From Cyanobacteriota bacterium (GTDB lineage: Bacteria; Cyanobacteriota; Vampirovibrionia; Gastranaerophilales; UBA9971), in contig JAKLDH010000013.1 in NCBI GenBank assembly GCA_022703625.1, positions 1-35,125 on the forward strand: a stretch of 35,125 nucleotides of DNA. The letters are read 5' to 3'. The notes under the pieces were generated by a model. That model saw only the letters and a list, made by a program, of their open reading frames with translations. It was not told the DNA's origin and did no database searches. Both the position numbers and the translations under genes were made by a program. The first letter of the stretch is position 1. Every line of letters begins with the position of its first letter. This document shows positions 7,829 through 31,458 of the stretch, piece by piece.

Positions 7829-7830
7829 AT

Positions 7831-8018
7831 ATATTGATCTGAAAAAGAAATCGGTAATTTGCTAAAAAGCTGATATCTACAGCCCGAAACGCCCGCAGGG
7901 CGTCTCGGGCTGAGTAAGGGTATAGCTGGTGTTGCGGCTTTGCCGCAACACCAGCAAATTAAAGCTTTACAAAAACAACCTTTTTTATTTAACGATTTCT
8001 TTTTAATATCACACTGAC
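7831..8018 (+). repeat. R1-B: full-length R1 element
   Basis: It has the R1 layout: a GC-rich first hairpin (agcccgaaacgccc / gggcgtctcgggct, one mismatch, loop gca) and a second hairpin with a different but perfectly paired sequence (gctggtgttgcggc, loop ttt). The typical right arm ends in atcacactga. The left end (tattgatctgaaaaagaaatcgg) resembles the R1 right end inverted. It begins right after the purU stop codon. Confidence 0.88.
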
Positions 8019-12569: not shown

Positions 12570-13259
12570 ATGGAAAATATTGTTAAATATCTGGATCAAA
12601 CTCTACTTTTGCAGGATACAAGCGAAAAAGAAGTTTTTGACTTCTGTAAACAAGCTAAAGAATACGGTTTTTATGCTGTATGCGTTCAGCCTTATCGGGT
12701 TTCAGACGCTTTTAAGGTTTTACGGGGCAGCAATACGAAAATTGCCGCTGTAGCCGGATTTCCTTGCGGATCAACATTTACAGATGTTAAATTACTGGAA
12801 GCCAAGATTTGTATTGAGCATGGGGCTGATGAAATTGACATGGTAATGAATATAGGCGCGCTTAAGGATGGAAACACAGATTTTGCAAAAACTGACATTC
12901 AAAAAATGGCTGAGCTTACAAAAAGCAATAACGTTATTTTAAAAGTAATCATTGAAACAGGGCTTTTAACAGATGAAGAAAAGGTTTTAGCATGCAAAAT
13001 ATCCGCTGAAGCAGGAGCTGATTTTGTCAAAACCTCAACCGGCATGACAAAAAACTCCATGCCGGCAACTGTGGAAGATATTAAATTAATGTATGAAACA
13101 GTAAACTTTTTAGGCGTTAAAGTAAAAGCCAGCGGAGGTATAAAGGATTATGCAACCGCAAAAGCAATGATTCAGGCAGGCGCATCAAGAATCGGAACAA
13201 GCTCAGGAGTTCAAATAGCGCAGGAAGCTGTTTTTTATAGCAAGTTGCAATCAATGTAG
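12570..13259 (+). CDS. deoC: deoxyribose-phosphate aldolase with element-derived C-terminus
   Basis: This 229-residue class I aldolase converts 2-deoxyribose-5-phosphate to glyceraldehyde-3-phosphate and acetaldehyde. Its Schiff-base Lys is about K154 in DFVKTSTGM. The second active-site Lys is about K186 in KVKASGGIK, and the Asp lies in DEIDMVMNIGA. The start chosen is ATG at 12570, with GGGGGAAAA upstream and the normal N-terminus (KYLDQTLL) just after; an in-frame ATG at 12513 is less likely. The last seven codons (YSKLQSM) and the TAG stop lie inside the R2-e repeat, so the C-terminus was probably extended by its insertion. It works with PunA and Cdd in nucleoside breakdown. Confidence 0.95.
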   Translation: MENIVKYLDQTLLLQDTSEKEVFDFCKQAKEYGFYAVCVQPYRVSDAFKVLRGSNTKIAAVAGFPCGSTFTDVKLLEAKICIEHGADEIDMVMNIGALKDGNTDFAKTDIQKMAELTKSNNVILKVIIETGLLTDEEKVLACKISAEAGADFVKTSTGMTKNSMPATVEDIKLMYETVNFLGVKVKASGGIKDYATAKAMIQAGASRIGTSSGVQIAQEAVFYSKLQSM

Positions 13260-13398
13260 CGCCCTGTTAAGTTAATTTTAAAGTTTTTTTTATCTACCCA
13301 TCCCCAACCCCTTCCCTTCAAAGGGAAGGGGCTTTTGTTTGTTTTTGGGTTTCGCTCGCTACGCTCGCTCAACCCAATGAATTAACTTAACAGAGCAG
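13260..13398. repeat. R4-a: inverted-repeat element nested in R2-e
   Basis: Ends are gccctgttaagttaatt and aattaacttaacagagc, inverted with one or two mismatches. TAG flanks both sides (13257-13259 and 13399-13401); the left TAG is the deoC stop codon. It holds aaccccttcccttcaaaggg and cgctcgctacgctcgctc palindromes. Confidence 0.75.
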
Positions 13399-13442
13399 TA
13401 GTATTAACTCTTCCTTCCCAAGTGAAGGGAAGAAGAGTTAAT

Positions 13443-13611
13443 AACTTGAATTGCTAAATAAATAATTTTATATTTGGCGTAGCGGCTGGCTTCGCCAGCC
13501 GCTACGCCTTCTTAAGGCATGCGGCTCGCAGGCAAAGCCTGCGAGCCGCATAAAAAATTAAAATAAAATTTCAATCTATTTCAGCGTTTCGACTAATTAG
13601 CAATTCGAGTT
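13443..13611 (+). repeat. R3-a: R3 element nested in R2-e
   Basis: Ends are aacttgaattgctaaa and attagcaattcgagtt. A perfect 4-bp repeat, taat, flanks it (13439-13442 and 13612-13615). Two strong hairpins follow: gcgtagcggctgg with loop cttcg, and atgcggctcgcagg with loop caaag. Confidence 0.9.
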
Positions 13612-13684
13612 TAATAAGGTTTTTGCCAGCGTAGTCGGCAAAAACCTTATTAAAAAATATTGCTCTTTTGATTGAAACTTAATA

Positions 13685-13939
13685 TTAAGCGGGTTCTTCC
13701 TGAATTGCAACTCCGGCTATCTGTGTATCAAAGACAGCCAGCTTTTTTAAAGGTCCTTTGCCTAGTCTTTCTATGATTTTTGGCATTTGCGGCTTTGCGT
13801 TTGCCATAATATTTCTTATTTCAAGGTAGGTTTCATCAGGATTATCAACATAAAAAACCAGCGGAGGCGCAACTACCTTAAGAAAAACCAATAAAGCTTT
13901 CCTTGTCTGTATTTGTTGTCCCTGTATATTAGGATTCAT
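13685..13939 (-). CDS. conserved-looking small protein downstream of purH
   Basis: I do not recognise this 84-residue protein. CAGGAG lies 8 nt before its ATG, and it starts 17 nt after purH on the same strand, so it is probably co-transcribed. It has no signal peptide; the segment LLVFLKVVAPPLVFYVDN is hydrophobic but contains prolines and is more like a buried strand-turn-strand than a membrane span. The middle (MPKIIERLGKGPLKKLAVFD) is basic and helical. Its stop codon is the flanking TTA of R2-e, so its annotated end coincides with the insertion site. Function unknown. Confidence 0.7.
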   Translation of the reverse strand: MNPNIQGQQIQTRKALLVFLKVVAPPLVFYVDNPDETYLEIRNIMANAKPQMPKIIERLGKGPLKKLAVFDTQIAGVAIQEEPA

Positions 13940-15513: not shown

Positions 15514-15606
15514 TTTTCATCCTCCCGTCAGCTGTTTCTATTTACAATTGTATTCGCTGATAAGACAAATAAAAGGGCAAGTTTTTTATAACAGCAAAAA
15601 ATTTGC

Positions 15607-15793
15607 TATATCAATACAAATAAGTTTTTGTTAATTGCTAAAAAAGCTAATATCTACAGCCCGCGCCGCCCTTCGGGCGGCGCGGGCTGAGTAAGGATAT
15701 AGCGGGTATTTCGGCTTCGCCGAAATACCCGCAAATTAAGGACTTATAAAAATCATCTTTTTAATTTGCCGATTTCTTTTTAAGATCACTATA
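15607..15793 (+). repeat. R1-E: full-length 187-bp R1 element
   Basis: Ends are TATATCAATA and GATCACTATA. Hairpin 1 is agcccgcgccgccc with loop ttc; hairpin 2 is gcgggtatttcggc with loop ttc, both perfectly paired. The next element, R3-b, begins at the very next base. Confidence 0.92.
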
Positions 15794-15915
15794 AACTCGA
15801 ATTGCTAATTAGTTGAAACGCTGAAATAGATTGAAATTTTATTTTAATTTTTTATGCGGCTGGCTTCGCCAGCCGCTACGCCAAATATAAAATTATTTAT
15901 TTAGCAATTCAAGTT
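15794..15915 (-). repeat. R3-b: 122-bp R3 element with one hairpin
   Basis: R3 ends AACTCGAATTGCTAA and TAGCAATTCAAGTT are present in reverse orientation. The two R3 hairpins are reduced to one that joins the outside of one (atgcggc) to the other, so about 48 bp were lost, probably by recombination between the similar ggc...gcc stems. It abuts R1-E without any gap. Confidence 0.88.
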
Positions 15916-17512: not shown

Positions 17513-17735
17513 CGAGAAAATAGCAACTTTTTATATATTAATGTGTTTATATAAGAGTGAGAACAAAACAAATCGAAAAAAAACAAAAAACTAAAATCAC
17601 AAATAATAAAGAATTTTAATTTTTTTTGCTCAAATATATAAATTTTCCTTCCTCTCATAACTCCTCTTTCCCTTACTCACTCTAAAGTATTTTTGCTTGA
17701 TTTTTTAGACAGTTTTAAAACTGTCTTTTTTTTTG
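17513..17735 (+). ncRNA. candidate CU-rich small RNA
   Basis: A sigma-70-like promoter and a strong terminator bracket about 220 nt with no convincing reading frame (the best has 17 codons and no ribosome site). The 5' half is A-rich; the 3' half is CU-rich, with ccttcctctcataactcctc, and contains ctcctc, which could pair with Shine-Dalgarno sequences. An 8-nt segment, agagtgag (about 17553), is complementary to ctcactct (about 17678) and could close a large stem. I cannot match it to 6S or another known family. It lies between punA (opposite strand) and an R3 element. Confidence 0.5.
17707..17735 (+). terminator. rho-independent terminator of the putative small RNA
   Basis: The perfect stem agacagtttt / aaaactgtct is followed by nine T residues. 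No protein-coding gene on the plus strand lies upstream of it. Confidence 0.85.
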
Positions 17736-17745
17736 CTTTTTTTAT

Positions 17746-17915
17746 AACCTTAGTTGCTAAATAAATAATTTTATATTTGGCGTAGCGGCTGGCGAAGCCA
17801 GCCGCTACGCCTTAGAAAAGACATGCGGCTCGCAGGCTTTGCCTGCGAGCCGCATAAAAAATTAAAATAAAATTTCAAGCTATTTAAGCGTTTCGGTTAA
17901 TTAACAACTCAAGTT
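17746..17915 (+). repeat. R3-d: full-length 170-bp R3 element
   Basis: Ends are aaccttagttgctaaa and taattaacaactcaagtt. Hairpin 1 has loop cgaag, the inverse of R3-a; hairpin 2 has loop ctttg, also the inverse of R3-a. The flanking 4-mers (ttat / atat) match at three of four bases. Confidence 0.88.
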
Positions 17916-18008
17916 ATATACTGTTCCAAATTCAATTTGAAACTATAATCACATTTATTATAAAATAATAATATTGTTTATTTTAAATTTTAAAGGAGTA
18001 CAATTATT

Positions 18009-20345: not shown

Positions 20346-20573
20346 GGTTTTTTTGAGCTTAGGGCGCCTCTAAAAACATTTGGTGTAGGGGCGAAGCCCT
20401 TGCTCCCCTACATTTTTATAAATTCAGTCCAAAATCCCCTCACCCCCAACCCCCTCTCCCAATGGGAGAGGGGGCTAAAGATTGTTTTTGGTCGAGCAAA
20501 CCGCTGCTGGCGGTTCGCTCGACCCATTAAATTTACTAAAAAATCTCGCAAAAATAAATTTTGTAGGGGAATA

Positions 20574-20743
20574 AACTCGAATTGCTAATTAGTCGAAACG
20601 CTGAAATAGATTGAAATTTTATTTTAATTTTTTATGCGGCTCGCAGGCAAAGCCTGCGAGCCGCATGCCCTTAAAACGGCGTAGCGGCTGGCGAAGCCAG
20701 CCGCTACGCCAAATATAAAATTATTTATTTAGCAATTCAAGTG
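20574..20743 (-). repeat. R3-e: R3 element nested in R5
   Basis: Ends are AACTCGAATTGCTAA and TAGCAATTCAAGTG, flanked by a perfect aata on both sides (20570-20573 and 20744-20747). Both R3 hairpins are intact. Confidence 0.92.
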
Positions 20744-31141: not shown

Positions 31142-31215
31142 CGTGGAGTTGTCATTGCGAGGCATAAAATTAGGCGTATAAACGGTTAACCTGTTCCGAA
31201 GCAATCTTCCATTTG
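31142..31215. repeat. R7-like dispersed repeat fragment
   Basis: gtcattgcgaggc and ccgaagcaatcttcc are the usual halves of a common dispersed intergenic repeat; the pairing between them is poor here, so it appears decayed. Confidence 0.4.
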
Positions 31216-31227
31216 TGAATTTTATCT

Positions 31228-31397
31228 AACTCGAATTGCTAAATAAATAATTTTATATTTGACGTAGCGGCTGGCTTCGCCAGCCGCTACGTCTTCTTAA
31301 GGACATGCGGCTCGCAGGCTTTGCCTGCGAGCCGCATAAAAAATTAAAATAGAATTTCAAGCTATTTCAGCGTTTCGGGTAATTAGCAATTCGAGTT
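31228..31397 (+). repeat. R3-f: full-length 170-bp R3 element
   Basis: Ends are aactcgaattgctaaa and attagcaattcgagtt, flanked by a perfect atct on both sides (31224-31227 and 31398-31401). Both hairpins are present; hairpin 1 has gacgtagcggctgg paired with ccagccgctacgtc. Confidence 0.93.
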
Positions 31398-31458
31398 ATC
31401 TAAAATTCATCAATAAAAAAAATTGGTATAAAAAATTTAAAACGAAATTAAATGTTTT

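Follow-up and report, generated by a model that had tools for sequence, protein, structure and literature searches.

The deoC reading frame ends inside a repeat element

The window analyzed here, that is, the whole stretch of DNA under study, is one entire contig, C35, which is 35,125 bases long and belongs to a 2.5-Mb draft genome assembled into 166 contigs. It carries deoC, the gene for deoxyribose-5-phosphate aldolase, and a convergent gene for a conserved 84-residue protein. Between the two lies R2-e, a copy of a repeat family termed R2 that is itself interrupted by two nested elements. The features of the locus are as follows.

12570..13259, plus strand: deoC, deoxyribose-5-phosphate aldolase, as presently read (229 aa; stop TAG at 13257-13259)
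13235..13237: left target duplication TTA, matching the R2 rule
13236..13256, plus strand: YSKLQSM, the seven codons apparently added to DeoC; the first codon spans the target copy and the element
13238..13684: R2-e, an R2-family MITE (447 bp with its two nested elements, 132 bp without them)
13257..13259, plus strand: TAG, the present deoC stop, native to the R2 end and also the left target copy of the nested R4
13260..13398: nested R4 element, with TAG copies at 13257-13259 and 13399-13401
13444..13610: nested element of a 160-bp family (GAATTGCTAA ends), with the 6-bp duplication TTAATA at 13438-13443 and 13611-13616
13685..13687: right target duplication TTA, also the stop (TAA on the minus strand) of the 84-aa gene
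13685..13939, minus strand: gene for the conserved 84-aa protein, its C terminus unaltered by the insertion

Read from its ATG at 12570, deoC closes with GTT TTT TAT AGC AAG TTG CAA TCA ATG TAG, which encodes EAVF-YSKLQSM-stop. The tyrosine codon bridges the junction, with TA coming from the target copy and T from R2-e, and translation in the deoC frame takes in the initial 22 bases of R2-e and no more, ending at the element's own stop. This TAG is ordinary sub-terminal R2 sequence (CAATCAATGTAGTATTAA) and was not created by R4; it lies 19 bases inside the element end, where the R2 consensus reads CAATCAATG TAG TATTAA. When positions 13238-13687 were removed in silico, the sequence rejoined as GTT TTT TAA GCG, and DeoC then ended at ...EAVF. 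The site free of R2-e is accordingly one that we predict to have read ...gttttttaagcg / ...gaagctgttttttaagcgggttc.

A sequence-only reading of the window had proposed this arrangement, and its observations held up at base resolution. The TTA triplets that it placed on either side of R2-e are present to the base, the frame bears out read-through into YSKLQSM as far as a TAG, and removal of R2-e with one TTA reproduced the in-frame TAA of the junction. The TAG that it named as the flanking repeat of the nested R4-a copy does indeed occur on both sides of that element.

R2 is a high-copy MITE family with a 3-bp TNA target

Matches to the R2 ends (TACCAAGTTGCAATCAA, 3 or fewer mismatches) numbered 221 (112 + 109) across the 2.5-Mb genome, compared to 0 + 1 for a reversed control pattern in the same genome; the matches of the R2-e ends to TACCAAGTTGCAATCAA are not due to chance. 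At 2 or fewer mismatches, 178 R2 ends were found in this genome, versus 0 to 10 per genome in 29 relatives, which indicates that the R2 expansion took place in this lineage and is specific to this genome. The copy number of R2 is on the order of 100, and the modal length among 50 paired copies is 145 bp.

Identical 3-bp sequences stood on both sides of 41 of the 50 paired copies, 39 of them conforming to TNA (TAA, 19; TTA, 16; TGA, 3; TCA, 1) and the remaining two being other triplets. Since these copies share flanking triplets, both the boundary of R2 and its target rule, a 3-bp duplication of TNA, are fixed. R2 is therefore short and multi-copy, has inverted TACCAAGTTGCAATCAA sequences at both ends, and makes a duplication of fixed length, as MITEs do; the open frames inside R2-e are all short. 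That R2 is a real MITE family with 3-bp duplications supports the earlier proposal that an R2 insertion removed the deoC stop.

The R2-e copy starts with TAGCAAGTTGCAATCAA and ends with TTGATTGAAACTTAATA, a slightly decayed pair of R2 ends. Once its nested elements are removed, it can be aligned with the R2 consensus over its full length at 79% identity; because most copies exceed 90%, R2-e is probably among the older R2 insertions. R4 copies at two other loci (L043 and L089) also have TAG on either side, and insertions of the 160-bp family (GAATTGCTAA ends) duplicate 6 bp of target. The window is strewn along its whole length with palindromic, MITE-like repeats that belong to several families and are nested in one another (e.g., at 105-210, 7829-8017, 15606-15864, 17730-17938, 20551-20742, and 31212-31402). 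The R2-e transcript is predicted to fold very strongly (z = -14), so that the deoC mRNA may possibly be affected at its 3' end; a search of the region for known RNA families found none.

The right flank of R2-e is a conserved gene end

Homologs of the 84-aa protein were found in 57 of 60 relatives. Its C terminus is QEEPA in this genome and QEEPA, QEEPVA, or QEEPCT among same-family genomes, with one relative's homolog ending identically (QEEPA-TAA). Given this conservation and the match of the QEEPA end to the closest homologs, the right flank of R2-e is a native gene end. These data are also in keeping with the suggestion that the ends of deoC and the 84-aa gene had a TTAA in common.

The genome is the sole member of its genus among the genomes compared, and synteny is lost across same-family genomes; for these reasons, a search for an orthologous site without R2-e found none. 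In no same-family genome where both genes could be placed were deoC and the 84-aa gene adjacent, and in one (G008) they share a contig but are separated by ~7 kb that holds other genes. No close relative of this DeoC was found among named public genomes, although many Gastranaerophilales were among the matches.

DeoC retains its core and does not end in Tyr

DeoC matches the Pfam DeoC family (9e-19) and the nearest solved DERAs (E = 1.7e-60), and its gene is present in a single copy in the genome. It keeps the residues that do not vary across 39 relatives, Lys 154 and Lys 186 among them, and has the class I aldolase core of DERA with its Schiff-base lysine. Judged by this conservation, the catalytic core is intact.

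The C-terminal Tyr of E. coli DERA takes part in catalysis, and variants that lack it are active (PMC8403123). The DeoC studied here does not have this residue, as it ends in Met now and in Phe when restored. Since the restored form ended in Phe, the insertion need not have cost the enzyme a catalytic Tyr. DERAs as a group split into long-tailed enzymes, which mostly end in Tyr, and short-tailed enzymes, which never did so in this sample (an exact Tyr end in 21 of 32 long-tailed versus 0 of 19 short-tailed relatives).

These tails bear on whether the present flanks of R2-e were once neighbors. If R2 insertion had been followed by deletion or recombination between R2 copies, the two flanks would never have been adjacent, and the original deoC tail would have been longer, perhaps ending in Tyr like those of the nearest relatives. 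Tails of 14 to 16 residues that end exactly in Tyr are found in five of eight same-family DeoCs, whereas the restored tail has 10 residues and ends in Phe; moreover, 9 of the 50 paired R2 copies have unmatched flanks, some copies having been rearranged. Yet the flanks of R2-e do agree (TTA/TTA), the restored junction carries an in-frame stop, the native end of the 84-aa gene lies exactly there, and short tails such as GIKIITE occur in other same-family DeoCs. By our estimate from the duplication frequencies, chance alone would make a pair of TNA triplets match roughly one-third of the time; a later rearrangement with a chance TTA match is possible, albeit unlikely. Overall, we consider deletion or recombination between R2 copies an improbable origin for this junction.

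A separate question, compatible with simple insertion, is whether the tail was selected because R2 supplied a useful extension that altered DeoC activity. The C-terminal tail of E. coli DERA contributes to catalysis, and an engineered DERA with a foreign nine-residue extension was improved with chloroacetaldehyde (PMC8403123). In an AlphaFold2 model of DeoC (mean pLDDT, 95.5), YSKLQSM extends the last helix (residues 213-228; pLDDT of the last block, 90), although such modeling does not establish that the tail is produced or useful. No signal of selection was detected, however, when the tail-coding part of R2-e was compared with the rest of the element (1 of 22 versus 16 of 110 sites differing from the R2 consensus, P = 0.30). 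Because DERA tails vary across the family and a neutral, tolerated change accounts for everything observed, we give little credence to selection on the tail.

Finally, it is highly improbable that the junction is an assembly artifact between repeat copies, or that it is by coincidence that TTA matches and the stops overlap: despite the 166 contigs and the location of some R2 ends ~200 bases or less from contig ends, R2-e is distinguishable from other copies by its divergence (79% to the consensus) and its own two nested elements, and its sides lead straight into conserved genes.

Proposed course of events

We conclude that deoC very probably lost its stop to an R2 MITE and that R2-e now supplies seven residues and a new stop. 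Starting from the observed anatomy, family, duplications, reading frame, and conserved core, we infer how the empty site read, the sequence in which the events occurred, and the production and tolerance of the tail. A non-autonomous R2 MITE would have inserted at the TTA within a TTAA common to the two convergent gene ends. The 84-aa gene would have regained its TAA through the 3-bp duplication, because its stop is exactly the duplicated triplet; deoC would have lost its own, because that stop used only the TA of the triplet plus the following A. With the deoC stop unrestored, translation would pass through the target copy into the terminal repeat of R2 and end at the TAG carried by the R2 consensus, such that DeoC would retain its catalytic core while its EAVF end was extended by YSKLQSM. 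R4 would later have targeted that TAG and duplicated it, the upstream copy staying in place, and a second MITE would have inserted deeper in R2-e. Neither nested insertion would alter the deoC frame.

Other R2 copies at stop codons

Three apparently genuine genes, which encode a phosphofructokinase (L084), an alpha/beta hydrolase (L101), and a conserved protein of 154 aa (L040), also have an R2 copy exactly on their TAA stop, and in each case the duplication preserves the stop. Thus, 3 of 41 R2 duplications coincide with the exact stop of an open reading frame of at least 100 aa, compared to 1.5% of the TNA sites in non-coding DNA of these regions. This enrichment (P = 0.025) was computed post hoc, after the cases had been seen, and is suggestive only. 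An element that lands exactly on a TAA or TGA gives the stop back through its target duplication, and for this reason we tentatively propose, as a minority possibility, that stops are a favored safe landing place for an element with a TNA target, that copies gather at gene ends, and that offset hits, as at deoC, yield a standard tail like YTKLQSM.

A candidate second tail of this kind, YTKLQSM at L114, was rejected, as its frame is a shadow of the real neuB. This neuB (positions about 904-1470) ends a few bases before the R2 target copy and soon after its NeuB domain; it may be without the usual C-terminal SAF domain.

Transposases and related repeats

Elements of the IS5/IS1031 type use a 3-bp TNA target. 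R2 has a TNA target, and no IS5-type transposase was found for it: DDE_Tnp_1, DDE_Tnp_1_2, and DDE_3 searches yielded no gene bearing R2 ends, and none of the DDE_Tnp_1 or DDE_3 genes of this genome is flanked by them.

Related ends (TACCAATTTGC) followed by a short open reading frame occur at contig ends in an order-level relative (G011), in which no full copy of an element with TACCAATTTGC ends was found. At L214-L218 and L225, in G011 and a second order-level relative, G017, contig-end repeats have related ends (TACCAATTTGCAAACAA) beside TNA triplets, and a short open reading frame, MRPKKQFPKG..., follows the TACCAATTTGCAAACAA-type repeats. These repeats and the MRPKKQFPKG... frame may possibly represent an autonomous cousin of R2. 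Elsewhere, a CRISPR-like repeat array adjoins a split IS630-like (DDE_3) transposase gene (L244, on contig G000:C101); the last repeat of the array is degenerate, and its end (ATTGCAACTTGATATA) is similar to the R2 terminal repeat.

Relation to known systems

In Coxiella burnetii, several functional genes (pntAA, mutT, nagZ, recN, ruvB, and enhC) are overlapped at their 3' ends by QMITE1 or QMITE2 and receive C-terminal amino acids from them, and the preference of the MITEs for gene ends was noted and left unexplained (PMC5896051). R2 resembles them as a high-copy bacterial MITE that gives C-terminal residues, but it belongs to a different sequence family and host; at deoC, moreover, the 3-bp target and the shared TTAA would explain base by base which stop survived.

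The Correia/NEMIS, RPE, ERIC, and YPAL repeats are likewise small and can be fused in frame to genes (reviewed in PMC2229807). Like R2, they are non-autonomous, mostly have TA at their ends together with target duplications, and occur as translated fusions. As points of difference, the R2 target is a 3-bp TNA, and R2-e is translated for its first 22 bases only. RUP of Streptococcus pneumoniae, which is thought to be mobilized by IS630-Spn1 (PMC2229807), is comparable in number and size (~100 copies of 107 bp, versus on the order of 100 copies of ~145 bp for R2); RUP targets contain TA, whereas R2 duplicates TNA.

At the level of the enzyme, the closest parallel is a DERA of E. coli that was engineered to carry nine foreign residues at its C terminus and is still active (Jennewein et al. 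2006, as covered in PMC8403123). As in the DeoC described here, its natural C terminus was replaced by a short foreign extension, but it is a laboratory variant, whereas the DeoC tail would have arisen by transposition.

Since MITE-donated C termini have already been published, the deoC case cleanly illustrates an already known kind of event and introduces no new mechanism. Its value is that the change of a protein end by a MITE can be read per base, and that the site makes plain why, of two overlapping stops, only one would survive an insertion. The TNA rule, which covers both TAA and TGA, offers a simple and testable reason why such elements may be tolerated at gene ends.
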